DNA of 64,000 nt from Mytilus galloprovincialis (taxonomy: Eukaryota > Mollusca > Bivalvia > Mytilida > Mytilidae): contig NC_134846.1 of NCBI RefSeq assembly GCF_965363235.1, forward strand, positions 72,886,724 to 72,950,723, read 5' to 3'. This document shows positions 14,180 through 58,623 of the stretch, one piece after another; position 1 is the stretch's first letter, and every line of letters starts with the position of its first letter. The translations under genes and the position numbers were made by a program. The notes under the pieces are model-generated. The model made no database searches. It was not told the DNA's origin and worked only from the letters and a program-made list of their open reading frames with translations.

Positions 14180-17100
14180 TAACCAATAATGGCTAACGTG
14201 GAGAATCACTTAGTATGGCCAGTCAACAATAGTTAATTTCAATTTTTAACCCTCTTCTGAAAAATCTTACGGGTCTAAGGTATCAGTGCTTTTATCCATT
14301 TTAAAGGTAATAACTACCTTTGTCCCTGTTATCGTGGCCCTAGTGGAGAATCTTTTAGTTTTGCTAGTCGGCAACAGTTCAATAAACCCCTTTCCCTTTG
14401 CTGAATGACTCGTACGGGTCTAGGGCATAAGTGTTATGGGTCATTTTAGAGTCAATATCAACTTCTACCTCTGGTATAATTGTCGATGTGGAGAATCTCT
14501 TACCTTGGCCAGCCGGCAATAGTTCAGTTCGAATTTGTTGTAAACCGGTATCCCATATCCCCACTTTTAACCCTCTACTTACTTACTCATACGGGTCTAG
14601 GGTATAAGTGCTATGGGTCATTTTAAAGTCAATAAGTACCTCTTCCTCTGGTATCATTGCCTACGGGGACAATCTCTTCGTTTGGCCAGCCGGCAATAAT
14701 TCATTTCGAATTTGTGATATACTTGGGTACCCCCTCCTTATCCTTTCCTGAATAACTCGTACGGGTCTAGGGCATAAGTGCTATCGGCCATTTTAGAGGC
14801 AGTACCAACCTTTACCTCTGGTATAATGGTCGATGTGGAGAATCTTTTAGTTTGGCCAGCCGGCAATAGTTCAGTTCGAATTCGTTGTTAACCGGAATAC
14901 CATATCCCCCCTTTTAACCTTCTACTGACAAACTCGTACTGGTCTAGGGTACAAGTGCTATGGGCCATTTTAAAGGCAATAAGTACCTCTTCCTTTGGTA
15001 TCATTGCCCACGTGGAGAATCTCTTCGTTTGGCCAGCCGGCAATAGTTCATTTTAGAATTTGTGATATACCAGGGTACCCCCCTTATCCTTTCAAGACTA
15101 ACTCGTACGGGTCTAGGGCATAAGTGCTCTCGGCCATTTTATAGGCAATACCAACCTCTACCTCTGGTATAATGGTCAATGCGGAGAATCTCTTAGTTTG
15201 GCCAGCCGGCAATAGTTCAGTTCGAATTCGTTGTAAACCGAAATACCATATCCCCCCTTTTAACCCCCTAATGACAAACTCGTACGGGTCTAGGGTACAA
15301 GTGCTATGGGCCATATTAAAGGGAATAAGAACCTCTTCCTCTGGTATAATTGCCCACGTGGAAAATCTCTTCGTTTGGCCAGCCGGCAATAGTTCATTTT
15401 CGAATTTGTGATATACCACGGTACCCCCCTTATCCTTTCCTGACTAACTCGTACGGGTCTAGGGCATAAGTGCTCTCGGCCATTTTAGAGGCAATACCAA
15501 CCTCTACCTCTGGTATGATGGTTGATGTGGAGAATCTCTTAGTTTGGCCAGCCGGCAATAGTTCAGTTCGAATTCGTTGTAAACCGGAATACCATATCCC
15601 CCCTTTTAACCTTCTACTGACAAACTCGTACGGGTCTAGGGTACAAGTGCTATGGGGCATTTTAAAGGCAATAAGTACCTCTTCCTTTGGTATCATTGCC
15701 CACGTGGAGAATCTCTTCGTTTGGCCAGCCGGCAATAGTTCATTTTAGAATTTGTGATATACCAGGGTACCCCCTTATCCTTTCCAGACTAACTCGTACG
15801 GGTCTAGGGCATAAGTGCTCTGGGCCATTTTATAGGCAACACCAACCTCTACTTCTGTTATGATGGTCGATGTGGAGAATCTCTTAGTTTGGCCAGCCGG
15901 CAATAGTTCAGTTCGAATTCGTTGTAAACCGGAATACCATATCCCCCTTTAACCCCCTAATGACAAACTCGTACGGGTCTAGGGTACAAGTGCTATGGGC
16001 CATTTTAAAGGCAATAAGTACCTCTTCCTCTGGTATCATTGCCCACGTGGAGAATCTCTTCGTTTGGCCAGCCGGCAATAGTTCATTTTCGAATTTTTGA
16101 TATACCAGGGTACCCCCCTTATCCTTTTCTGACTAACTCTTACGGGTCTAGTGCATAAGTGCTATGGGCCATTTTAGAGGCAATACCAACCTCTACCTCT
16201 GGTATAATGGTCGATGTGGAGAATCTCTTAGTTTGGCCAGCCGGCAATAGTTCAGTTCGAATTCGTTGTATCCGGGATACCATATCCCCCCTTTGAACCC
16301 TCTACTGACAAACTCGTACGGGTCTAGGGTATAAGTGCTCTGAGCCATTTTAAAGGCAATAAGTACCTCTTCCTCTGGTATTATTGCCCACGTGGAGAAT
16401 CTCTTCGTTTGGCCAGCCGGCAATAGTTCATTTTCGAATTTTTGATATACCAGGGTACCCCCTTATCCTTTTCTGACTAACTCGTACGGGTCTAGGGCAT
16501 AAGTGCTATGGGCCATTTTAGAGGCAATACCAACCTCTACCTCTGGTATAATGGTCGATGTGGAGAATCTCTTAGTTTGGCCAGCCGGCAATAGTTCAGT
16601 TCGAATTCGTTGTATCCGGGATACCATATCCCCCCTTTGAACCCTCTACTGACAAACTCGTACGCGTCTAGGGTATAAGTGCTATAAACCATTTTAAAGG
16701 CAATAAGTACCTCTTCCTCTGGTATCATTGCCCACGTGGAGAATCCCTTTGTTTGGCCAGCCGGCAATAGTTCATTTTCGAATTTGTGATATACCAGGGT
16801 ACCCCCCTTATCCTTTTCTGACTAACTCGTACGGGTCTAGGGCATAAGTGCTATGGGCCATTTTAGAGGCAATACCAACCTCTACCTCTGGTATAATGGT
16901 CGATGTGGAGAATCTCTTAGTTTGGCCAGCCGGCAATAGTTCAGTTCGAATTCGTTGTATCCGGGATACCATATCCCCCCTTTGAACCCTCTACTGACAA
17001 ACTCGTACGGGTCTAGGGTATAAGTGCTCTGGGCCATTTTAAAGGCAATAAGTACCTCTTCCTCTGGTATTATTGCCCACGTGGAGAATCTCTTCGTTTG

Positions 17101-19645
17101 GCCAGCCGGCAATAGTTCATTTTCGAATTTTTGATATGCCAGGGTACCCCCCTTATCCTTTTCTGACTAACTCGTACGGGTCTAGGGCATAAGTGCTATG
17201 GGCCATTTTAGAGGCAATACCAACCTCTACCTCTGGTATAATGGTCGATGTGGAGAATCTCTTAGTTTGGCCAGCCGGCAATAGTTCAGTTCGAATTCGT
17301 TGTATCCGGGATACCATATCCCCCCTTTGAACCCTCTACTGACAAACTCGTACGGGTCTAGGGTATAAGTGCTATGGGCCATTTTAAAGGCAATAAGTAC
17401 CTCTTCCTCTGGTATCATTGCCCACGTGGAGAATCTCTTCGTTTGGCCAGCCGGCAATAGTTCATTTTCGAATTTGTGATATACCAGGGTACCCCCCTTA
17501 TCCTTTTCTGACTAACTCGTACGGGTCTAGGGCATAAGTGCTATGGGCCATTTTAGAGGCAACACCAACCTCTACCTCTGGTTTGATGGTCGATGTGGAG
17601 AATCTCTTAGTTTGGCCAGCCGGCAATAGTTCAGTTCGAATTCGTTGTATCCGGGATACCATATCCCCCCTTTGAACCCTCTACTGACAAACTCGTACGG
17701 GTCTAGGGTATAAGTGCTATGGGCCATTTTAAAGGCAATAAGTACCTCTTCCTCTGGTATCATTGCCCACGTGGAGAATCTCTTCGTTTGGCCAGCCGGC
17801 AAAAGTTCATTTTCGAATTTGTGATATACCAGGGTACCCCCCTTATCCTTTTCTGACTAACTCGTACGGGTCTAGGGCATAAGTGCTATGGGCCATTTTA
17901 GAGGCAATACCAACCTCTACCTCTGGTATAATGGTCGATGTGGAGAATCTCTAAGTTTGGCCAGCCGGCAATAGTTCAGTTCGTATTCGTTGTATCCGGG
18001 ATACCATATCCCCTCTTTGAACCCTCTACTGACAAACTCGTACGGGTCTAGGGTATAAGTGATATGGGCCATTTTAAAGGCAATTAGTACCTCTTCTTCT
18101 GGTATCATTGCCCACGTGGAGAATCTCTTCGTTTGGCCAGCCGGCAATAGTTCATTTTCGAATTTGTGATATACCAGGGTACCCCCCTTATCCTTTTCTG
18201 ACTAACTCGTACGGGTCTAGGGCATAAGTGCTATGGGCCATTTTAGAGGCAATACCAACCTCTACCTCTGGTATAATGGTCGATGTGGAGAATCTCTTAG
18301 TTTGGCCAGCCGGCAATAGTTCAGTTCGAATTCGTTGTATCCGGGATACCATATCCCCCCTTTGAACCCTCTACTGACAAACTCGTACGGGTCTAGGGTA
18401 TAAGTGCTATGGGCCATTTTAAAGGCAATAAGTACCTCTTCCTCTGGTATCATTGCCCACGTGGAGAATCTCTTCGTTTGGCCAGCCGGCAATAGTTCAT
18501 TTTCGAATTTGTGATATACCAGGGTACCCCCCTTATCCTTTTCTGACTAACTCGTACGGGTCTAGGGCATAAGTGCTATGGGCCATTTTAGAGGCAATAC
18601 CAACCTCTACCTCTGGTATAATGGTCGATGTGGAGAATCTCTTAGTTTGGCCAGCCGGCAATAGTTCAGTTCGAATTCGTTGTATCCGGGATACCATATT
18701 CCCCCTTTGAACCCTCTACTGACAAACTCGTACGGGTCTAGGGTATAAGTGCTATGGGCCATTTTAAAGGCAAGAAGTACCTCTTCCTCTGGTATCATTG
18801 CCCACGTGGAGAATCTCCTCGTTTGGCCAGCCGGCAATAGTTCAGTTCGAATTCGTTGTATCCGGGATACCATATCCCCCCTTTGAACCCTCTACTGACA
18901 AACTCGTACGGGTCTAGGGTATAAGTGCTATGGGACATTTTAAAGGCAATAAGTACCTCTTCCTCTGGTATCATTGCCCACGTGGAGAATCTCTTCGTTT
19001 GGCCAGCCGGCAATAGTTCATTTTCGAATTTGTGATATACCAGGGTACCCCCTTATCCTTTTCTGACTAACTCGTACGGGTCTAGGGCATAAGTGCTATG
19101 GGCCATTTTAGAGGCAATACCAACCTCTACCTCTGGTATAATGGTCGATGTGGAGAATCTCTTAGTTTGGCCAGCCGGCAATAGTTCAGTTCGAATTCGT
19201 TGTATCCGGGATACCATATCCCCCTTTGAACCCTCTACTGACAAACTCGTACGGGTCTAGGGTATAAGTGCTATGGGCCATTTTAAAGGCAAGAAGTACT
19301 TCTTCCTCTGGTATCATTGCCCACGTGGAGAATCTCCTCGTTTGGCCAGCCGGCAATAGTTCAGTTCGAATTCGTTGTATCCGGGATACCATATCCCCCC
19401 TTTGAACCCTCTACTGACAAACTCGTACGGGTCTAGGGTATAAGTGCTATGGGCCATTTTAAAGGCAAGAAGTACCTCTTCCTCTGGTATCATTGCCCAC
19501 GTGGAGAATCTCCTCGTTTGGCCAGCCGGCAATAGTTCATTTTCGAATTTGTGATATACCAGGGTACCCCCCCCCCCCTTAATCCTTTCCTGACTAACTC
19601 GTACGGGTTTAGGGCATAAGTGCTATGGGCCATTTTAAAGGCAAT
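14180..19645 (-). repeat. 345-bp dimeric satellite array, - orientation
   Basis: About 16 units of the same satellite as at 1-1977, read on the minus strand. Copies from about 16190 to 19550 are almost identical; those from 14180 to about 16000 are more diverged, so homogeneity falls toward the insert on the left. Two places (near 18840 and 19355) lack the alternate half-unit, so two like halves are joined directly; this also shifts the open frames there. The array ends abruptly at about 19645, shortly after a C-tract (19567-19578). Open frames of 60-111 codons occur but follow the repeat. Confidence 0.95.
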
Positions 19646-39737: not shown

Positions 39738-39999
39738 AGAGAAGATTTTAATTATTTACATTCAGAGAAGATTTTATATTATTTACATTCAGAGAAGATT
39801 TTAATTATTTACATTCAGAGAAGATTTTAATTATTGACATTCAGAGAAGATTTTAGTTATTGACATTCAGAGAAGATTTTAATTATTTACATTCAGAGAA
39901 GATTTCAGTTATTTACATTCAGAGAAGATTTTAATTATTTACATTCAGAGAAGATTTTAGTTATTTACATTCAGAGAAGATTTTAATTATTTACATTCA
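39738..39999. repeat. 26-bp minisatellite, about 10 copies
   Basis: Unit 'ATTCAGAGAAGATTTTAATT' plus 'ATTTAC', 26 bp, repeated about ten times with few changes (TTAATT/TTAGTT/TCAGTT, TTTAC/TTGAC variants). Non-coding. Confidence 0.9.
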
Positions 40000-45306: not shown

Positions 45307-46071
45307 TTAGTTCCGATGCAAAGACCCTATCAGTGAATCAATGTTAAAGCCAAAATATGCAATCTTTAATGACCTGACAACAGTATCGTAACTATATCCC
45401 CTTTTAATAAGTCTATTTAAAGGTTTTGTTAGTTTCTGAGGAGAATACTGACATTTTTGTGCTTTATAAAGAATATTTCCATAAAATTTTGGATGTGAAA
45501 TACCTGAACGTATAAGATGTCTGCATGTTGAGTTATATTTACGAATTATTTCCTTATACCGGTGATAAAATTTAGTAAATGTTTTGACCAGTTTGTGATA
45601 TCGAAAACCCTGGTGTAATAATTTTTCAGTAATACATAAATTTCTCTCGCTAAAATCTAATACATTGTTACATACACGAGCGAATCGTACAAGTTGAGAT
45701 ATATAAACACCATAAGATGGTGACAAGGGAACGTCACCATCTAAAAATGGATAATTAACAATAGGAAATGAAAAATCATCTCTTTTATCATAAATTTTTG
45801 TATTAAGCTTCCCGTTTATGATATAGATATCAAGATCGAGGAAAGGGCAGTGGTCATTGTTATCATTAGCTTTATTTAAAGTAAGTTCTACAGGATAAAT
45901 TTCTTTAGTATACATACTGAAGTCGTCATTATTTAGAGCCAATATATCATCCAAATATCTAAAAGTATTGTTAAATTTTTGTATCAAATGTTGTTTTGAT
46001 GGGTCTTTGCTAATTTTAGTCATAAATTGTAACTCATAACAATACAAAAACAGGTCCGCAATAAAATCCTT
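45307..46071 (-). mobile_element. Truncated reverse transcriptase (probably Penelope-like)
   Basis: An uninterrupted frame of 246 codons from Met (46047), open upstream for about eight more. It holds the C-terminal part of an RT: 'FRYLDDILALNN' with the catalytic Asp pair, then 'CPFLDLDIYIINGKLNTK', 'IYDKRDDFSFPIVNYPF', 'PSYGVYISQLVRFAR' and 'YKEIIRKYN'. This RT type is abundant in invertebrates; I assign it to Penelope-like elements with moderate confidence. The fingers and first palm motifs and any endonuclease are missing, so it is 5'-truncated, as is usual for target-primed retroelements. The absence of stops suggests a young copy. Confidence 0.65.
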
Positions 46072-46264: not shown

Positions 46265-46681
46265 CTAAGAGATATACTGTTTGTCACGGCTTTGTCCTTC
46301 CATAATAAACCAGTTCCTGAATTTTGATGGTAGCTGTCCTTGGGGAGGGTGTCGTTTATCTTTTACACAAGCATTTTTAATAGACTCCGCTGTAAATATC
46401 TCGGCTTTTCTAGTACTCATAAGGAAACGAATATAGCTAGACACTGTTGGTTGATTAAGGCACAATGCACTGAATTGTTTCGTTCTCGACGTTGGAGGTC
46501 TTTTTGTTCCTTGCTGTTCCTGATCCTTGTTTGGCCTTGCTTTTGGCGTATTTAACCGTTCCACTATTTTGTTGATTTCATATTTAGACTTTGTTTGAAA
46601 AGCAGGTGCTTTTTGAATAAATATCTTATATTCAGGAATATATTCTTTATTCCTATTCGACATTTTACAGTATCTATTCAA
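46265..46681 (-). CDS. Uncharacterised single-exon protein, paralog family copy 1
   Basis: 138 codons, one exon, basic. I do not recognise a characterised family. It aligns along most of its length with the products at 49589 and 57991. Shared blocks in order: 'EYIPEYKIFIQKAPAF' (residues 13-28), 'VERLNTP' (40-46), a variable hydrophilic spacer, 'LNQPTVSSYIRFLMSTRK' (75-92), and 'RHPPQGQLPSKFRNWFIMEG' (109-128). No signal peptide or membrane segment is visible. It may start at the second Met (residue 7). It lies directly upstream of, and on the same strand as, the truncated RT, which is probably accidental. Role unknown. Confidence 0.7.
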   Translation of the reverse strand: MNRYCKMSNRNKEYIPEYKIFIQKAPAFQTKSKYEINKIVERLNTPKARPNKDQEQQGTKRPPTSRTKQFSALCLNQPTVSSYIRFLMSTRKAEIFTAESIKNACVKDKRHPPQGQLPSKFRNWFIMEGQSRDKQYIS

Positions 46682-47104
46682 GTCATAAACTTTTAAAATA
46701 CAGCTGGTATTTTATATGTTTTTTTTTATATACTTCCAATTTCTTTTATATGTACTTATATAAAATAAATTATAAATTCAATTTAAAAAAATGCTAATAG
46801 AAGTCATAAAACGATTTACATACACATCATGTGGCAATCGGTGTTACAAAGCACAAATTTTACTTTACAGAATCCCATTAGAAACACGGCATGAAAACCA
46901 ATCAAAACAACATAAACTGCTCATCCTGATAATCTGAATTTTTTTTCACAGCCAGTATCATAACAGATTGTAAATGGTTATCAAAGGTACCAGGATTCTA
47001 AACTTTTGAAAAATAAATTGTGTCTTTTGAAATTTTTCAACCGATTGAGTTGTTTTATTAAAATTACATGCTGTATCAAATATGTATTATTATCATATAA
47101 CAGT

Positions 47105-47260
47105 TCATATTTACATAGATATAGGAAGATGTGGTGGGAGTGCCAATGAGACAACTCTCCATCCAAATAACAATTTATAAAAGTAAACCATTATAGGTCA
47201 ATGTACGGCCTTCAACACGGAGCCTTGGCTCATTCCGAACAAAAACCTTAAAAAGGCCCT
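47105..47260 (-). repeat. Dispersed repeat fragment
   Basis: 'GGGAGTGCCAATGAGACAAC', 'AACCATTATAGGTCAATG' and 'TACGGCCTTCAACACGGAGC' (plus-strand reading) recur inverted at 62590-62690 and 29870-29965. Non-coding. Confidence 0.6.
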
Positions 47261-47394
47261 CAACATTACAAGTGTTAGATAAATATTTAAATATAGAATG
47301 TTTTACATTAAGTTATTTAATATATTAAGGTATAGATAAAGAGTGTACGTGAAATGTATTGTTTTTTTTATTTTATTTTTTGTATAATTTTTCC

Positions 47395-48445
47395 TAGATA
47401 CCAGGATTGAAATTTTATATTTTCGCCAAACACGCGTTTCGTCTACAAAAGATTCATCAGTAACGCTGGAAGATATTATTTTTTAGAAAGGCCAAATAAA
47501 GTACGAAATTGAAGAGCATTGTAGACCAAAGATTCCTAAAAGTTTTGCCAAATACAGTTGAGGTAATCTACCCCTGAGGTTGAAAAGCCTTAGTATTTAA
47601 AAAAAATTCAAAGTTTTGTAAACAGTAAATAAAGGCAACAGTAGTATACCGTTATTCAAACCTCATAAATCCATGGACAAAAAACAAAATCGGCGTAACA
47701 AACTAAAACTGAGGGAAACGCATTAAATATAAGAGGAGAACAACGACACAACATTAAAATGTAACACATACACACAGAAACGGACTAAGCATTAGACAAA
47801 ATCCTATGAGAATAACAAATATAACATCAAAACCAAATACATGAATTTGGGATAGATAAGTACCGTGACACGTCTTATAGTAATGTGAATTCACCCTAAA
47901 AAAATAAGAGAAAACAACGACACAACGGAAACACAACGTTAAAATGTAACACACACAGAACGAACTATAATATAACAATGGCCATATTCCTGATTTGGTA
48001 CAGGACATTTTTAAAGGAAAAATGGTGGGTGAAACTGGTTTTGTGGCATTCCAAACCTCCCTCTTTTATAACCATTTGAAATATAACATTAAAATGACAA
48101 CACAACATTACAGGACTACAATATAAATAAATAGAACACAATTGACAAAGAAACACACGAAAAATTGCTAACAAAAGGCATTAAGTTTAAAATTTTTAAT
48201 ACGCCAGAAGTGCATTTTGCCCACACAAGAATTACTAGTGACACCCAGATACAAAAGTTTGAAAGCCGAAACAAGTATAAAGTTGAACAGCATCGGGGAA
48301 CAAAAGTTCAAAAAAAGTTGTGCCAAAAACGGCCAGGGTTTTCTTTAGGTACAAGAACATCCCTATTATTTAGAATAGTTTATACTTTTGCAAACAGTAA
48401 ATTTTATAAAATAACTATACAAAAGATGCACATGATAAACTGAAG
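47395..48445 (-). repeat. Dispersed repeat, two adjacent copies
   Basis: On the minus strand this matches the repeat nested at 8700-9358: 'GTAGTCCTGTAATGTTG', 'GTCCTGTACCAAATCAGG', 'CAAATTCATGTATTTGG', 'TTGTCCATGGATTTATGAGG', 'TACTACTGTTGCCTTTATTT'. The conserved module appears twice (47398-47470 and 48180-48250), so two related copies lie head-to-tail. It carries open frames of 60-90 codons with no recognisable product. Confidence 0.7.
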
Positions 48446-49588
48446 TATTAACTAATTATATTTTACAGGAAACAACCGAAATACATCACATAACCCGTCA
48501 CATAGTAAATCTATAATTATGACCATATCAATGAAAACTCATGTCAACACAGAAGTGCTGACTACTGGGCTGGTGATACCAGGCATACGTGCTTGTGGTT
48601 ATTATGTATTTGGTCCATCATTAAAAATAAATGTCTGATTTCTTTTTGATAACAACCTATCAGATTCGAGAAATAAAAACAACAAAGGAAATCATGTATG
48701 TGCTTAATTGTGAATTATATTAGTTTAGTTTAGGACTTGAATTGAAATTCCAATTGTTTTTTAAAGAGGTATCTGGATTCTAATGATTCCGAATTTGTAC
48801 TGTAGCAACTGCAACGAAATATTTATAATTCAAACTTATCCGATTCTATATAACTACCAATATAACGTTTGCTGAATATTCATTTTTATTAAATTGTATC
48901 CGCTTTACATTATTTTAAAGATAATATAACAATTTATTAAAATTCATTTTATCTTTGTTTCGCCATCTTGTATTCTTCTCAAAAAGTTTTGTGATATATG
49001 AAAAAACCCTCATATCTTGATTAATCATTGCTTAATCCCGAGAGTCCGTCATTAAGACACATGTGACAAAGAAAGAATTATACACCAAATAATTTGCTGT
49101 CTTTAAAAATCGACGAATACATAGCAGTAACCTATCCTTTAATTCATGTTTAAAGAGTTTTTCCTCATACATTTTTACTGATATAATGTTCAAATTTTGA
49201 TAATTGTTCAAGGCAAGATTGATACAATAAAATACAATACTGGTCCTTATTGGGAGATATTTTGATACAACAAGGTCATACATAATATTAAGGACATTAA
49301 TTATGAATACAAAGCAAACTTAATTATTTCGTGTAAATTGAACATTTTAACTATATGTTGAAATAAATCCTTTTAAACTGATAAAATATAAACGGGTTAT
49401 GAATCTGTACAAGAAGTGAATTGTGTTAACTATGTTGACAAATGGTTTGGAACGATCATAAATTGAATAAAAAACGTTGAAACAATGAAAGTTTTGTTTA
49501 TCCCACATTTTGTTTTAACATAAAATTAAATAAAAAAAAAAGAATTTAATTTAAAAAATTATGCAGAAAAGGGTAGTCTTATATCAAA
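48446..49588. other. AT-rich gene-free interval
   Basis: No gene seen. 48543-48600 carries 'ACAGAAGTGCTGACTACTGG', a phrase type that recurs near 41980 and 55055. It would include any promoter of the gene at 49589, but no distinctive site is visible. Confidence 0.4.
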
Positions 49589-50053
49589 ATGAGAAACCAA
49601 AGGATAATTTACAGAGGCCCGGGATTTGCACCTCTATCCAAAAATGTGAACATTGTCAACTATGAGTACATTCCAGAATATATGACGTACATTCCTAAAG
49701 CAGCAGCATTTAGAGCAGCTTCTGGTGACAAGATAAATGAAATGGTAGAAAGATTAAGCACTCCATCATCATCTGCTAGCAGAGAAAGCAGCAGCAATAG
49801 GGCAAGATGTACGGATAAAAAGGGCATCGTTCAACCATCTCTGGTAGACTGCAGATTAAATATTCTTAGACTGAACCAACCAACTGTATCAAGCTATATA
49901 AGATTTCAGATGAGAAGCAGAAAGGATCGGTTGATAAATGTTGAGGATATAAGGAATTCTTGTGATAAATATAATAGACATCCTCCACAAGGATATGTAC
50001 ACGCAAGGTATAGAAACTGGTTTACTGTAGAGGGGCATACACTCTGGAATTAA
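49589..50053 (+). CDS. Uncharacterised single-exon protein, paralog family copy 2
   Basis: 154 codons, intronless, stop TAA at 50051-50053. Same family as 46265 and 57991; closest to the first. Blocks: 'NYEYIPEYMTYIPKAAAF' (residues 24-41), 'MVERLSTP' (52-59), a Ser-rich spacer, 'LNQPTVSSYIRFQMRSRK' (94-111), 'CDKYNRHPPQGYVHARYRNW' (123-142), 'FTVEG'. No membrane segment or signal peptide. The first ATG is taken because the frame is closed upstream. Being on the opposite strand from copy 1 while keeping the same blocks, it is a true duplicate and not an antisense shadow. Function unknown. Confidence 0.75.
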   Translation: MRNQRIIYRGPGFAPLSKNVNIVNYEYIPEYMTYIPKAAAFRAASGDKINEMVERLSTPSSSASRESSSNRARCTDKKGIVQPSLVDCRLNILRLNQPTVSSYIRFQMRSRKDRLINVEDIRNSCDKYNRHPPQGYVHARYRNWFTVEGHTLWN

Positions 50054-50059
50054 GAACTA

Positions 50060-50800
50060 ATGAATGGCATATACAAAATGTATTTTATTAACTTGGTTAT
50101 TTTTGTGATGTAAGGCAAAGTTCATTGTTTATTCTCAGTTGAGACACTTTTAAGGACTATATTAACATGTTTGATATTCAAGTGTTTCGCGTTGCTACAA
50201 TTGAAAAGAAGTGAGCAAATGTGTAACAACAATATCAACAAAGTGGAGATAATTTTCTATATATCAGACAGAATTACTGATAGTTTTATTTGCTTTGAAG
50301 CCAAATATATTCCTTCAGATTACATGTTAAAACCAAATAACAATATTAAGAATGCACAATCAGTGGGTAAGATATGTCTTGACGCGGGTATCTTATAATG
50401 ATAATTTATGTAAAATGACAACAATATGTACAGAACTCGACAACAAAATTCTCTATTTTTCTATATCATTTTGCCGGAATAGACGAATTGGGCAGTCGAT
50501 AAAAGGAGACTATATCGTTCAACATAAAACTTGACTGGCTTATTTCAATTGTCTGCTAAATTTCGTATTAAGAGTATTAGAAGTGTACTTCTTTTATAAA
50601 AGCTCCATAAAAGAGCTATTGTGTTTACTATTTTTTTCTATTTATTATCAGACCTCATTCTAACATTATAAACGAGTCCAAGTTGTACGCAAATTTACCA
50701 AAATCTATGACATAATCCATTTACTGTTCTTTGATCTTAAACATTAGTAAAATATTGCTTCTACATCTAAAAGAGAAACACTTCACGTTGCACACTATTT
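50060..50800. other. Gene-free interval downstream of copy 2
   Basis: AT-rich, no recognisable feature on either strand. The open frames at 50171-50398 and 50352-50534 have no recognisable content. Confidence 0.4.
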
Positions 50801-50804
50801 AGAA

Positions 50805-50985
50805 GTAAAATAAAAAAAAAATACTGAATTCAGATGAAATTCAAAAAGAAAAGTCCCTAATCAAATGTTAAAACCAAAAGCTCAAACACATCAAACGCAT
50901 TCAAACCAATTGCAAAGGTCATATTCCTGACTTGGTACAGACATTTTCTGATGTAGAAAATGGTGGATTAAACCTTCCAATAATT
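50805..50985 (+). repeat. Dispersed repeat ('ATTCCTGACTTGGTACAG' family), copy 3
   Basis: Matches 40015-40200 in order: 'ACTGAATTCAGATGA', 'AAAGTCCCTAATCAAATG', 'CATATTCCTGACTTGGTACA', 'TTCTGATGTAGAAAATGG'. Non-coding. Confidence 0.6.
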
Positions 50986-51119
50986 ATTTTTTGTACGATA
51001 TATAGATAAGCAGAAAGACTGTTAAATCACCACTAGATTTGGTGGAATAAAATGAAAACAACACGTTATTTATTGTATGCGGCCACAACGCTTTTTGATT
51101 TAGATTTCCCTGTATCAGG

Positions 51120-51315
51120 AATGCTCACAGCTTTATAACCTGAGATTCCACATTTTTGATGGGGTTTGTGTTGCTTAGTCTTAAGTTTTCTATGCTGTGT
51201 CTTGTGTACTATTATTTGTCTGTTTGTCATTTTCCTTTTTAACCATGACGTTGTCGGTTTATTTTCGATCTATCATTTCGAATGTCCCTGTGGTATCTTT
51301 CGCCCTCTTTTGAAA
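51120..51315 (+). repeat. Dispersed repeat, inverted partner of 43801-43995
   Basis: 'TTTTTGATGGGGTTTGTG', 'TTTCTATGCTGTGTCTTGTG', 'CCATGACGTTGTCGG' and 'GTGGTATCTTTCGCCCTC' are the reverse complement of the 43801-43995 tract. A weaker trace of the same family is near 57008-57070. Confidence 0.65.
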
Positions 51316-51630
51316 GCCAAGGATGTATAAGAACCGATTCATTCGAAGAGCTAAATAACTACAACTGAAATGTAAAATAACCAAATCCCTCTAAGGTAAA
51401 CCTTGCCTTATGGAGTTGAAACCTTAGTTTCTTTTACATTAATTAAATTTAAACGGAAAAATTTGGAAAGGTTTGATATAATAACATAAACGGTACCAAT
51501 TTTGCTGCACAATTAATGTTTCTTATGAAATAGGCAAAGCCGGGTAAGGAATCGGAGCTTTGCATAGAGAAATATGTTCCTCAATTTAATATAATTCCAA
51601 ATATTTTATAAAGCAAATTTTAATATAATA

Positions 51631-54600
51631 CAAGAGGCTCTCAAGAGCCTGAATCGCTCACCTTAATTCTTTTGGTTAAATCTCTCATCAATGATTATTT
51701 TGGCTTTTCAATTTATTTAAATGTTTTTTGGATCGTCCTATTTTCTTCAAAAGCCAAAAAAAATAATCATTTTCTCCTATGTTCTATTTTAGCCATAGGA
51801 GCTATGTTTCTTGACATACAAGGAAATAAAATATAAAATTTATACTAGATACTCTGAAACTCATTTAGCCTAAGTTTGGCTGAAATTGATACAGCAGTTT
51901 CAAAGGAGAAGATTTTTTAAAGTAAGTCAACATGATGAACAAATTGTAAAAAAGTCTTTAAAGGGCAATAACTCCTTAAGGGGTCAATTGACAATTTTGG
52001 TCAATTTGACTTAATTGAAGATCTTACTTTGCTGAACATTATTACTGTTTACAGTTTATTTCTATCTATAATTATATTCAAGATAATAAACAAAAACAGC
52101 AAAATTTCCTTAAAATTATCAATTCAGGGGCAGCAACCCAACAACAGGTTGTCTGATTCATCTGAAAATTTCAGGGCAGATAGATCTTGACCTGATAAAC
52201 AATATTACCCCGTCTATTTGCTCTAAATGCTTTGGTTTTTGAGTTATAAGCCAAAAACAGCATTTGACCCCTATGTTCTATTTTTAGCAATGGCGACCAT
52301 GTTTGTTGATAGATCATAACTTCGGATACAATTTACAAGCTAGATACCCTAAGGAACATTCAGTTAAAGTTTGGAAGTATTTGGCCCAGTAGTTTCAGAG
52401 GAGAAGATTTTTGTAAAAGATTACTAAGATTTACGAAAAATGGTTAAAAATTGACTATAAAGGGCAATAACTCCTAAAGGGGTCAACTGACCATTTCCGT
52501 CATGTTGACTTATTTGTAAATCTTACTTTGCTGAACATTATTGCTGTTTACAGTTTATCTCTATCTATAATAATATTCAAGATAATAACCAAAAACAGCA
52601 AAATTTCTTTAAAATTACCAATTCAGGGGCAGTAACCCAACAACAGGTTGTCTGATTCATCTGAAAATTTCAGGGTAGATAGATCTTGACCTGATAAACA
52701 ATATTATCCCTGTCAGATTTGCTCTAAATGCTTTGGTTTTTGAGTTATAAGCCAAAAACAGCATTTGACCCCTATGTTCTATTTTTAGCAATGGCGACCA
52801 TGTTTGTTGATAGATCACAACTTCGGATACAATTTACAAACTAGATACCCTAAGAAACATTCAGTTAATGTTTGGAAGTATTTGGCCCAGTAGTTTTAGA
52901 GGAGAAGATTTTTGTAAAAGATTACTAAGATTTACGAAAAATGGTTAAAAATTGACTATAAAGGGCAATAACTCCTAAAGGGGTCAACTGACCATTTCCG
53001 TCATGTTGACTTATTTGTAAATCTTACTTTGCTGAACATTATTGCTGTTTACAGTTTATCTCTATCTATAATAATATTCAAGATAATAACCAAAAACAGC
53101 AAAATTTCTTTAAAATTACCAATTCAGGGGCAGTAACCCAACAACAGGTTGTCTGATTCATCTGAAAATTTCAGGGTAGATAGATCTTGACCTGATAAAC
53201 AATATTACCCCGTCAGATTTGCTCTAAATGCTTTGGTTTTTGAGTTATAAGCCAAAAACAGCATTTGACCCCTATGTTCTATTTTTAGCAATGGCGACCA
53301 TGTTTGTTGATAGATCATAACTTCGGATACAATTTACAAGCTAGATACCCTAAGGAACATTCAGTTAAAGTTTGGAAGTATTTGGCCCAGTAGTTTCAGA
53401 GGAGAAGATTTTTGTAAAAGATTACTAAGATTTACGAAAAATGGTTAAAAATTGACTATAAAGGGCAATAACTCCTAAAGGGGTCAACTGACCATTTCCG
53501 TCATGTTGACTTATTTGTAAATCTTACTTTGCTGAACATTATTGCTGTTTACAGTTTATCTCTATCTATAATAATATTCAAGATAATAACCAAAAACAGC
53601 AAAATTTCTTTAAAATTACCAATTCAGGGGCAGTAACCCAACAACAGGTTGTCTGATTCATCTGAAAATTTCAGGGTAGATAGATCTTGACCTGATAAAC
53701 AATATTATCCCTGTCAGATTTGCTCTAAATGCTTTGGTTTTTGAGTTATAAGCCAAAAACAGCATTTGACCCCTATGTTCTATTTTTAGCAATGGCGACC
53801 ATGTTTGTTGATAGATCATAACTTCGGATACAATTTACAAGCTAGATACCCTAAGGAACATTCAGTTAAAGTTTGGAAGTATTTGGCCCAGTAGTTTCAG
53901 AGGAGAAGATTTTTGTAAAAGATTACTAAGATTTACGAAAAATGGTTAAAAATTGACTATAAAGGGCAATAACTCCTAAAGGGGTCAACTGACCATTTCC
54001 GTCATGTTGACTTATTTGTAAATCTTACTTTGCTGAACATTATTGCTGTTTACAGTTTATCTCTATCTATAATAATATTCAAGATAATAACCAAAAACAG
54101 CAAAATTTCTTTAAAATTACCAATTCAGGGGCAGTAACCCAACAACAGGTTGTCTGATTCATCTGAAAATTTCAGGGTAGATAGATCTTGACCTGATAAA
54201 CAATATTATCCCTGTCAGATTTGCTCTAAATGCTTTGGTTTTTGAGTTATAAGCCAAAAACAGCATTTGACCCCTATGTTCTATTTTTAGCAATGGCGAC
54301 CATGTTTGTTGATAGATCACAACTTCGGATACAATTTACAAACTAGATACCCTAAGGAACATTCAGTTAAAGTTTGGAAGTATTTGGCCCAGTAGTTTCA
54401 GAGGAGAAGATTTTTGTAAAAGATTACTAAGATTTACGAAAAATGGTTAAAAATTGACTATAAAGGGCAATAACTCCTAAAGGGGTCAACTGACCATTTC
54501 CGTCATGTTGACTTATTTGTAAATTTTACTTTGCTGAACATTATTCCTGTTTACAGTTTATCTCTATCTATAATAATATTCAAGATAATAACCAAAAACA

Positions 54601-55033
54601 GCAAAATTTCCTTAAAATTACCAATTCAGGGGCAGCAACCCAACAACGGGTTGTCTGATTCATCTGAAAATTTCAGGGCAGATAGATCTTGACCTGATAA
54701 ACAATATTACCCCATGTCAGATTTGCTCTAAATGCTTTGGTTTTTGAGTTATAAGCCAAAAACTGCATTTGACCCCTATGTTCTATTTTTAGCAATGGAG
54801 ACCATGTTTGTTGATAGATCAAAACTTCGGATACAATTTATAAATTAGATACCCTAAGGAACATTCAGTTAAAGTTTGAAAGTATTTGGCCCAGTAGTTT
54901 CAGAGGAGAAGATTCTTGAAATAGTTTACGACGACAGACGACGACAGACGACGGACGACGGACGACAGACGACGGACGACGACGGACGCCAAGTGATGGC
55001 ATAAGCTCACTTGTCCCTTCGGGACAGGTGAGC
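51631..55033. repeat. 3.4-kb element with a ~501-bp core amplified ~6x
   Basis: The landmark 'AAGGGCAATAACTCC' recurs at 51961, 52460, 52961, 53461, 53962 and 54463, a period of 499-502 bp. The outer ends are unique: left 'GAGGCTCTCAAGAGCC' (hairpin) then 'CGCTCACC'; right a (GACGACAGACGACG)-type tract (54930-54990), then 'GTCCCTTCGGGAC' (hairpin) and 'AGGTGAGCTA'. CGCTCACC and GGTGAGC give a sub-terminal inverted repeat. Inner units are almost identical; the first and last are more diverged. Variants ('TATCCCTGTC' versus 'TACCCCGTC'; 'ATCACAAC' versus 'ATCATAAC') are shuffled between units, as after gene conversion. No protein is encoded. Confidence 0.9.
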
Positions 55034-55039
55034 TAAAAA

Positions 55040-57990
55040 TTCGTATTTTCATGTCAGTACCGAGGTACCGTGGTACTGACAACTGAGCTGATGATACCCT
55101 CGGTGACTAATGGTCATCTAGCAGAAGGTATTGACCAAGTTCTGTAAAAATATTCAAACAACATAAACGCTTCTTAATATTAATATTGTCACCTGTATAC
55201 AATTGACATTTCTTTGTTCAATTAGTGTTTTATAATTCCATTGATTCTCCATAAAAAATGGATGAAAATTATCTGTGTACAATGAGTGCTTTAAATATAA
55301 TTTCAAATTATTATCAAACAGGAAGTGTTTGCACAGTAGATGTTGAACTTTATATGTTTATGTGTACAATGAATGGTGTAAAATTTGTTACCAATCGACA
55401 AAGAGGATGAAGCTGCACGATAGATCTAACAATTGATCATACGCTACAACTCAAAATTATTAAGATGCTGACCAAATAAAAAAATCAATCCAATAAAAGA
55501 CCAGAACAACTTTATCGAACTTGGACAGCGGAAGGAAACAGATTCGTCAGGTTTATGCAGTTTGAAGAGCATACTATAATGAATACAAGATATATTTTAA
55601 TAAACTATAAACTCCAAAAATGTAAAGAATGAATTTACAATAAATCCTCAATTTCAGCTTGCTTACTCGCCCTTTTACAAGAAAAAAAATTTAAGACCTT
55701 ATCCTCAAGGACTCATCGAGGCCAATTTAAGTATGTTGATGTATTTGGTCCTTTCACTTTTCTTCAGCATTTTGACATTTAAATTAGGTTTCAAATAATT
55801 TGGTCTCGAGCATCACTGAGAAATATAATTGAAAGCAACAGTAATATGCCGCTGTTCGAAACTTTGAGAATACATTAATTGTCAAAATGCGCAACTTGTG
55901 CAGTAAAATTGATACCACTTTTATTATCTTTTTCATGTCTTTTCCATGGTAATCTGCATATTATTTACTATCAGATTTTTTTTATAGACCACTCCAAATT
56001 ATTTCCAGTACTTTGAATTACTTCTGTATTAGAGGAGTGAGCTAACGATAAACAATCTTCTTCGAAATTTATAGTTTTCTTTAGAGTTGAAAGGAATTTC
56101 TCTAGCGCAACATTTTCTTAGAATTTTTGGTTAAATTAGCGAAAGTTTTTTGGTTCCTAGTAAGCGAATTTATGATAATAGTTAAATTGAACCTTGACCA
56201 TTATTTCCTTTGTCTTACAAATGACAAAGGGATATGGATTCGATTCTGAAAACATGTAATCTTAAAATCCCTATAAAACAGGTCGAAAATATGACATTTC
56301 TAGAACTTATCGTTTATGCACCTTGTCATGTATAAATGTGTTGATGATGAATATCATTATCTGTTTGTCTGTGATAATATTATTTCAAAACACAGAAAGA
56401 AATACATTTCTAAATATTGATATATTACAAATACTTCTGTACTGAAAAATGCAAAAGTTGATGTTCGAAATTTATATATATTTATCAAGAGGCGGTCTTT
56501 TCTCATCTACGTACATACATAAACAGTTTAGAACTCATCATAATGCAAATTTCAGTAAGTATTTTTTTCTATTTTTTCAATTTTATTCTGTCTTTTTGTG
56601 TTACTGATATATGTGTTGTCTTGCTGTTACATATTTTGGTGTATATTTTTACAAAAAGAATTGACAAGAACTGATTTTAGATAAGACAAAGGTTTTGTAG
56701 TTGCTCAGACTACATACTAGTTTGATTAAAACGAACTTGCTGAGTACGAAAGATTATCATATACGAATATGAAGCATGACTTGTGACCAGTCAACTGTCA
56801 AATTCATAAACGGATACCTGGTGCATTGACATTTTTAATACAAGAACATAGAAAAGTGATTTATGATATTCAAAATAATAAAAAAAAGTGCATACGAAAG
56901 TGACATTTTCATACATGTATGCAGGTATAAGCATATAAAAATAGAACATGAATATATGACTGATCTTTTCTATAACAAAAAAACTAGTGCTTTTTATCTT
57001 CGGTTTTGTGTGTAGTTTTTTATGATCTGCTGTTTGTTTGCTTATCTTTTGAGTGCCCCTTGGTATCTTTTATTTGCATAGCAATTCATGTACTAATGGT
57101 CAAACTCTATTGTTTCGAACACAATTCAATACTTCATTCAATATGTCTAATGCATTGCTGCATATACGGCTTTAAACATATCCAATACTCATAATATTTC
57201 TTCTTCAATTCGATACTTCATTTCATACATTTTACAATGCATTTTCTTCTTCAGTTTCTTTGTAGAGTACAGAGGGCAATCAGCAACATCATTGTCACCC
57301 GGTGAAAATTACAAAATTATATAAGATATAAGATATTACCTCAATGTTTTGTCTTTTAGCGCGGTGACCTATAGTTGTATTATATCTTTTTAAATTAATG
57401 ATATAAGCTACATTTTTGCTTATCTGAAATATTCTGCCATATTTTGTTCAGAATCCCAAACTGCATTTATGCCTCGGTAGGTTTAGTCAGATAATAGTGG
57501 TGCACATCAGTCTTGGATGTCTTATTTCTCCTGGTTATTTCAAGTGCATTCTACAAACGATCGTGTACAGTTGAGATATATATCATATTTCTTTCCCTAT
57601 ATTTATTCAGTTTCATTTCACTTTGCTTATCGAATTATCTATACAAATTCTGCCTTTAAAAAAGTTAATATCTATTTCAATTGGTATCTTTCAACTACTG
57701 ACAAATTTCTTTATAAGTTTTCAACTACTGACAAATTTCTTTATAAGTTTTCAACTACTGACAAATTTCTTTATAAGTTCACATTTATGATGTACTATTC
57801 CATACAAGAAGTCAATATTTTTCTCCAGTGTTAATACATTCTTTTTTTTTATCTTCTTTTAATATATTTGTAATATTACCTAAGAACACAGTCGATTAAA
57901 TGCCATCTAATACGATGTCTGATCTGCTAAGCGATAAAGAAATGTTTTTATGACACATAATAAACAGATACATCAAGTAAAGCCGAACTA
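55040..57990. other. Gene-free, repeat-containing interval
   Basis: No gene recognised. Contains 'GTACCGAGGTACCGTGGTAC' (55060), a SINE-like fragment at 55690-55930 with 'CTCGAGCATCACTGAGAAA', a weak dispersed-repeat trace at 57008-57070 and the 30-bp minisatellite below. Confidence 0.45.
57691..57780 (+). repeat. 30-bp minisatellite, 3 copies
   Basis: 'TCAACTACTGACAAATTTCT' plus 'TTATAAGTTT' repeated three times at 57691, 57721 and 57751. Because 30 is divisible by three it keeps a 105-codon frame open across it (57517-57834), which has no other sign of being a gene. Confidence 0.9.
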
Positions 57991-58623
57991 TTATATATCA
58001 TAATCTAACGAGTCTAAACTGCTTTTGTTCGTATTTGTTGAGAGAAAGCTAGATCTCATACTTTTCGTACCATCAACATTTAACCAGTTCTTATACGCCA
58101 TTGGAAAATATCTTTGTGATGGTGGTAAATTAAGTCTGTCACAAGCATTTGTAATTTCAGTTACCTTCAATTTTCGTTGATTAGCACTCCTCATTCGCAG
58201 CCTGATTTTACTAGCTACTGTTGGCTGACTTAATCTGTCAACACTACAATTTTGAGATTCATATGACGATGGCTCTGGGTGAAGAGATTTTATCTCCGAT
58301 TCTGTTTCCAATTTAGGAGTTCGCATCCGAGGTGTGTATAATCGTTTAGATATTTCTGTCGCTTTACTTCCCGACACAGTTTTGAATGCAGGTGCTTTCG
58401 GAATGTATGCCTTGTATTCCGGAACATATTCGTAGGTGATTAAACTAGTTTTTACATCCACATAAACAGGCTTTCTGCCACATTTTCGATGATTTTGTTC
58501 TTTCCGTTTCATTGTCCTGTTCTCTAATGAAATGTTTGTGCTGTAAATATTCCTAATGTTGTGTTTCTGAACAGATTGATACCCTGTACTGAAAGCCATT
58601 GCTATCCCACGTAAAAATGTCAC
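57991..58623 (-). CDS. Uncharacterised single-exon protein, paralog family copy 3
   Basis: 210 codons, intronless, the longest and most diverged of the three paralogs. Blocks: 'YEYVPEYKAYIPKAPAF' (residues 64-80), 'SKRLYTPRMRTP' (92-103), 'LSQPTVASKIRLRMRS' (131-146), 'CDRLNLPPSQRYFPMAYKNW' (159-178) and 'LNVDG'. It has extra N-terminal (about 45 residues) and C-terminal ('KSSLDSLDYDI' end) parts. Later Met codons at residues 9 and 38 are possible starts. The protein is basic, with no signal peptide or membrane segment. Function unknown; conserved Tyr/Pro/Arg-rich short blocks recall structural or cytoskeletal proteins, which is only a guess. Confidence 0.75.
   Translation of the reverse strand: MTFLRGIAMAFSTGYQSVQKHNIRNIYSTNISLENRTMKRKEQNHRKCGRKPVYVDVKTSLITYEYVPEYKAYIPKAPAFKTVSGSKATEISKRLYTPRMRTPKLETESEIKSLHPEPSSYESQNCSVDRLSQPTVASKIRLRMRSANQRKLKVTEITNACDRLNLPPSQRYFPMAYKNWLNVDGTKSMRSSFLSTNTNKSSLDSLDYDI

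Follow-up and report, generated by a model that had tools for sequence, protein, structure and literature searches.

The question raised by this locus is what kind of protein is encoded by three short, mutually similar reading frames lying on both strands of a single stretch of 64,000 nucleotides (C9:72886724-72950723, referred to here as the window) in the 1.38-Gb assembly of the mussel Mytilus galloprovincialis. The three frames, named P1 (P0001), P2 (P0002) and P3 (P0003), are real paralogs, and they belong to an undescribed family that is selected at the protein level. The likeness of a helical unit repeated in these proteins to the helix motif of the ArcMAPs, which are proteins of Leishmania doublet microtubules, points to proteins that decorate microtubules, possibly those of cilia or sperm tails.

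Three frames of one family under selection

The original prediction had placed three single-exon frames in the window, and all three are present and open, with translations of 138, 154 and 210 residues. The length of 154 residues holds for P2 (49589-50053, plus strand; frame translation and own-genome search), which begins with ATG, whereas those of 138 and 210 residues depend on a TTG start at 46681 for P1 and on a GTG start at 58623 for P3. Read from its first ATG, P1 is a protein of 132 amino acids (46663 down to 46265, minus strand) and P3 one of 202 amino acids (58599 down to 57991, minus strand), the latter then beginning with MAF, as does the paralog L015. A purine is found at position -3 in 10 of 11 presumed starts, with the pseudogene L018 set aside and the members L057 and L061 outside this list.

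The alignment of P1, P2 and P3 contains 33 invariant columns; identity to P2 is 44% for P1 and 37% for P3, and the closest pair reaches 46%. P1 matches P2 at E 1.8e-26, and a search with P2 as query against the proteins of its own genome matched the two window paralogs at E 3.3e-26 and 9.0e-24, and therefore the likeness of the three frames is not due to chance. Five blocks had been proposed to be shared by the three proteins, and the shared blocks are indeed real, but the fourth, C(D/V)K....PP, is exact in two copies only: P3 has CDRLNLPP at this place, where R replaces K and PP is one residue closer. By eye, blocks 2 and 3 resemble each other as repeats of a single unit would.

Selection was assessed on six genes, the three window genes and three neighbours (L020, L015 and L017), which form the cluster described below. 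In all 15 pairs the mismatch rate at third codon positions (0.56-0.67) exceeds that at second positions (0.31-0.56), the excess being small in two pairs (L020 with L015 and L020 with L017), and therefore the protein is under selection, as had been supposed from the conservation of the blocks. The proposed calculation of the ratio of non-synonymous to synonymous substitution rates (dN/dS), performed by the Nei-Gojobori method (NG86), gave values of 0.16-0.76 in 13 of the 15 pairs and undefined (saturated) values in the other two, all of which are to be read qualitatively only because dS (1.4-3.5) is near saturation.

Own-genome searches with eight family proteins as queries retrieved at least 13 intact single-frame members and one pseudogene, these counts being lower bounds because only the best candidates were scored. 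Six members (L020, L015, L017, P1, P2 and P3) lie in a cluster of approximately 120 kb on C9 (72.825-72.945 Mb), while the dispersed members comprise six on C2 (L025, L021, L023, L057, L024 and L061) and one on C14 (L022). The local duplication that had been proposed is supported by the cluster, the members of which are all placed on one side of a tree branch with a support of 88/90, but seven members are located on C2 and C14, and therefore the family is not solely local. The members on C2 and C14 are linked to the cluster by L021 with P3 (E 7.8e-5) and by L022 with P2 (E 3.4e-4); among these members the weakest best link is that of L061 with L022 (E 2.7e-7). The dispersed L061, L057 and L025 are long branches of unsure placement in the tree. 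A family profile run over 190 kb round the cluster, in which 1,812 frames reach 40 amino acids or more, recovered the same six members, with the next best frame at E 0.12. Left out of the member count were C9:25593995 (E 0.58, three stops), C3:8514092 (E 2.9, two stops), C12:28645568 (E 3.8), C7:69458899 (E 1.1, one stop), C6:35481217 (E 2.9) and C9:81255177 (E 3.1). The pseudogene L018 (C9:91478999-91482316, at 91.48 Mb) stems from duplication of a segment with L017, from which it is 18.6 Mb distant and to which it is 89% alike over 655 bp; approximately the first quarter of the gene is gone, and the remainder carries a frameshift and in-frame stops.

An N-terminal block, MAF...NIRxIYS, is present in nine members, including P3, where the block profile detects it as MAF...NIRNIYS (within 57991-58599, minus strand). 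For the four cluster genes that are without this block, no upstream exon encoding it was found in the 190-kb region, in which the block profile hits P3 and L015 only (next best E 0.065).

The repeated unit and its weak counterparts in solved structures

The repeated unit consists of a helix ending in x-R-L, often followed by P-T/S, and two copies of it can be recognized by eye in 12 of the 13 members, at a distance of 32-60 residues in 11 of these 12 and of 159 residues in L020. No member departs from the Arg of the R-L pair in unit 1 (13 of 13), and 10 of 12 unit 2s keep it. In order to evaluate the second unit, the unit-1 profile was applied to the remainder of each of the 13 proteins and to 200 shuffles thereof: the second unit scored above all 200 shuffles in four members (L057, P3, L024 and L023) and was equalled by at most four shuffles in three more (L015, P2 and L025), a support that is clear for the former and moderate for the latter. 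All 13 proteins are basic, with a net charge of +7 to +33.

Models of P3 and P2 were generated with AlphaFold2 (AF2), and each of their four units was modelled as a helix of 11-12 residues in which the R-L Arg is the tenth residue. In P2, the predicted helices cover residues 46-57 in unit 1 (49712-49792, plus strand; profile and AF2), with Arg55, and residues 85-95 in unit 2 (49838-49912, plus strand; AF2, score reached by 1 of 200 shuffles), with Arg94. In P3, they cover residues 77-88 in unit 1 (58303-58383, minus strand; profile and AF2), with Arg86, and residues 113-124 in unit 2 (58192-58272, minus strand; AF2, 0 of 200 shuffles), with Arg122. Unit 1 of P1, which begins with QTKSKYEINKIVERLNTP (46517-46597, minus strand), holds the invariant Arg. 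The YxYxPEY..YIPKA.AF segment was modelled as a hairpin; in P2, where it corresponds to YEYIPEYMTYIPKAAAF (49652-49711, plus strand), the predicted beta-hairpin consists of strands 25-28 and 33-36, with a block predicted local distance difference test (pLDDT) score of 72-77. The N-terminal helix is without R-L.

The Pfam scans of the 13 family proteins (performed on 3, 8 and 2 proteins) returned matches below the cut-off only, the best having an E-value of 0.026. The view that the family is uncharacterised therefore stands in so far as no Pfam cut-off is reached, but a weak, recurrent counterpart, ArcMAP/MOP23, exists among solved structures. Structure-sequence searches were performed against 177,635 PDB sequences, with matches listed at E<=10. 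The whole-family profile produced two matches only, MOP23C (E 1.7) and MOP23B (E 6.1), neither of which is significant; it was these matches that directed attention to the unit. Profile A4, composed of the 13 unit 1s, each cut directly after the conserved PAF-type anchor and one of them moved by one residue, placed ArcMAP1 (E 0.0012) at the head of the list and MOP23B (E 0.023) next, with MOP23C at E 0.48 and MOP23A at E 0.79; these four are accompanied, among the 17 sequences listed, by 13 unrelated ones (from E 0.12 up). Profile A8, composed of the 12 unit 2s, had ArcMAP3 (E 0.42) as its sole match, while profile A3, composed of 25 units of both kinds, had nine matches, six of which are ArcMAP/MOP23 sequences (ArcMAP1 at E 0.0055, MOP23B at E 0.0085); in ArcMAP1 the alignment covers four units. 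Across the unit profiles, six different sequences of the ArcMAP/MOP23 kind recur. As controls, a permuted unit-1 profile yielded zero matches in the PDB, and a reversed one yielded 49 (best E 0.12), mostly arrestins and no microtubule protein. Searches of the PDB with single proteins gave no match for P3 and P2, and chance matches only for L022 and L023.

The R-L Arg of the mussel unit corresponds to the Arg common to all four aligned stretches of ArcMAP1, in which the units are spaced by 33, 46 and 81 residues (counted from the A3 alignment), compared to the 32-60 residues seen in most mussel members. The EKDYEEVG stretch of alpha-tubulin, which we take to contain D431 by its numbering, is encoded at 18 sites in the mussel genome. 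MOP23A-C (PDB 9e2g and 9e5c) are presumably proteins of the outer surface of the trypanosome doublet, and several units of MOP23B and MOP23C are matched by the mussel profiles. The sections of PMC7617938 that deal with the ArcMAPs describe ArcMAP1-4 as four paralogs forming a lateral arc outside protofilaments B04-B08 of Leishmania doublet microtubules, modelled for Leishmania tarentolae in PDB 9E78, and state that every ArcMAP helix contacts a protofilament, often by means of a conserved Arg that bonds alpha-tubulin D431. The same sections report slower swimming upon deletion of ArcMAP1 or ArcMAP4, and no slowing upon deletion of ArcMAP2 or ArcMAP3 (PMC7617938). We infer that the R-L Arg of the ArcMAPs is the Arg that contacts D431. 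The mussel proteins thus resemble the ArcMAPs in being paralogs with a repeated helix that ends in R-L and shares its Arg, and their unit-1 and unit-2 profiles rank ArcMAP1 and ArcMAP3 first, respectively. They differ from both the ArcMAPs and MOP23A-C in belonging to an animal and in having two units and an additional hairpin, N-terminal block and C-terminal block.

Proposed binding to the outer face of microtubules

The reading that we favour, to which we assign a probability of roughly 0.6, is that these basic and mostly disordered proteins bind microtubules from the outside, much as the ArcMAPs do, and represent a lineage-expanded animal family. Each unit helix would sit on a single protofilament, at its outer face, where the unit Arg would bond alpha-tubulin D431, as PMC7617938 describes for the ArcMAPs, and the flexible spacer between units would bridge the gap to the adjacent protofilament. 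Both the conserved hairpin (Y-P-E-Y..PKAPAF) and the C-terminal block specific to the cluster may touch tubulin or a partner, fixing the position of the protein. The likeliest setting would be the axonemal doublet in sperm or ciliated epithelium, with the paralogs possibly occupying different positions or cell types. The hint at ciliary microtubule inner proteins in the original prediction would accordingly have had the right direction as regards ciliary microtubule proteins, but the likeness points to the outside of the microtubule and not to its lumen. Membership of the ArcMAPs proper is not claimed, because the four-helix feature is absent and the sequence relation is weak (E 0.0012, 0.42 and 1.7 by profile).

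Several observations weigh against binding of this kind. The single aligned stretches are not significant alone (best independent E-value approximately 1), only the sums over repeats being so; the E-value of 0.0012 is the best among four family-profile searches, and the units were cut only after the whole-family profile had indicated MOP23. The unit-1 matches are without ArcMAP2 and ArcMAP3, the unit-2 matches without ArcMAP1 and MOP23, and ArcMAP4 appeared in no search. In unit 2, the Arg is replaced by Thr in L020 and by Cys in P1, where this unit, ending in SALCLNQPTVSSYIRFLM (46418-46489, minus strand), was delimited by eye and has a score reached by 12 of 200 shuffles. In the C-terminal block a further copy of the unit, plausible by eye, was rejected, since its summed score over seven members was reached in 800 of 1000 shuffles. 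ArcMAPs place at least four helices over successive protofilaments, whereas the mussel proteins have two units. The recommended structure prediction provided the helix and hairpin models of P3 and P2, but these are poor overall (mean pLDDT 58.9 and 64.4) and led to no reliable fold match: of the Foldseek searches with both models, one returned a single match (E 5.1) and the other eight (E 3.4-9.3), among which two human doublet-microtubule chains (E 6.8 and 8.2) were not counted.

The lack of a reliable fold match also favours the competing explanation that survives best, according to which this is a selected orphan family with another role (e.g., nuclear, signalling or gamete) and the likeness to ArcMAPs is that of a short amphipathic helix which carries R-L by chance. 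The motif is short and low in information, the 13 unrelated sequences among the 17 unit-1 matches include a designed helical repeat (E 0.12) and RNA polymerase II factor B subunit 3 (E 0.2), and in six of the 13 members the second unit does not outscore shuffles, 12 to 70 of 200 being as high. We nevertheless consider this explanation possible but unlikely, considering that ArcMAPs are ranked first by two separate profiles, that the same six ArcMAP/MOP23 sequences recur, and that neither the permuted nor the reversed control profile retrieved any of them.

If the proposed binding to the outer face is correct, the unit defined here in sequence connects a group of uncharacterised animal proteins with a tubulin contact that is already known, the bond of Arg with alpha-tubulin D431. 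Lineage-specific coat proteins of the axonemal doublet are usually first seen by cryo-electron microscopy; the unit would provide a directly testable rule for recognizing outer-surface microtubule proteins from genomes, and molluscs would tune the doublets of their cilia or sperm by means of paralogs that are theirs alone. A more speculative extension, which we regard as doubtful and as slightly less probable than an orphan family with another role, is that the mussel proteins represent an animal branch of an ancient protofilament-clasping superfamily shared with ArcMAP/MOP23, older than the split between animals and Discoba and expanded independently in molluscs.

Kinship with SPMAP2, which we take to be THEG, with SPMAP2L or with TEX33 (PF15400) is very improbable. 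THEG repeats (PF14912) contain LSxP, as do the mussel units, and two mussel THEG frames scored above 300 of 300 and 287 of 300 shuffles; however, the unit profile covers just LsrP in THEG, where the sequence likeness ends and to which the shuffle signal shrinks, and among the region's 1,812 frames four unrelated ones score as high. The short NIKHQYG of TEX33 resembles the N-terminal NIRHIYS of the mussel family, but hhalign shows no relation (E 0.42, Probab 0.14). The mussel genome moreover has its own THEG and TEX33 loci, and neither Pfam family is among the matches in the scans of the 13 members. The part of PMC7617938 concerned with mammalian sperm assigns SPMAP2/SPMAP2L a niche similar to that of the ArcMAPs, and describes them as unrelated to the latter. 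Genes with THEG repeats were located at C12:15.24 Mb (L063), C4:100.85 Mb (L064) and C12:73.57 Mb, and a TEX33 homolog with NIKHQYG at C9:94154500-94155900 (L062; E 7.5e-18).

Mobile elements and repeats in the vicinity

The least probable reading is that the family consists of transposon or virus fragments (ORF1-like proteins). In its favour, a very high-copy retroelement-like fragment (45307-46047) follows P1 downstream after 217 bases, in the same orientation, and a short stretch of this fragment is present approximately 1 kb downstream of L025. Against it, at least 13 intact, strongly diverged members were found in 1.38 Gb, compared to no fewer than 150 identical copies of the neighbour of P1, flank matches (blastn) among intact paralogs are scattered, at differing distances and no longer than approximately 220 bases (target-site duplications not being sought), Pfam gives no transposon domain above cut-off in the 13 members, and a viral search with P2 as sole query, which covers close relatives only, found no relative. 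The transposon match that would have undermined the original prediction was thus looked for, and the family has neither a high copy number nor a mobile-element domain; the retroelement-like neighbour of P1 is taken as a coincidence.

This neighbouring frame (45307-46047, minus strand) has 48,690 first-look candidates in the genome, 150 of which were scored and are all 100% identical, with frames of up to 504 amino acids. Pfam gave nothing above cut-off for it, and its YLDD motif is presumably reverse-transcriptase-like. Between P2 and P3, the window contains approximately six tandem copies of a 501-bp unit (51948-55020), which are mostly 90-100% alike, the last copy being diverged (74%). A 345-bp higher-order satellite (176 + 169 bp) forms two arrays, at 1-1677 and 14387-19645, which are opposite in orientation and up to 99% complementary, and a 26-bp tandem repeat occupies 39738-39999 (10 copies, 94% matches). 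The presence of a satellite of approximately 173 bases would fit an origin from Mytilus. Outside the window, the locus L043 includes a frame of 481 amino acids (C9:72863220-72864665), which we take to be a Mutator-like element (MULE)-type transposase with a SWIM zinc finger, and a short-period repeat (C9:72867302-72868234) that reads RSRDIFRGF on one strand and SRDLKPRNM on the other and contains three open frames of 155 to 310 codons, of which the plus strand carries one and the minus strand two.

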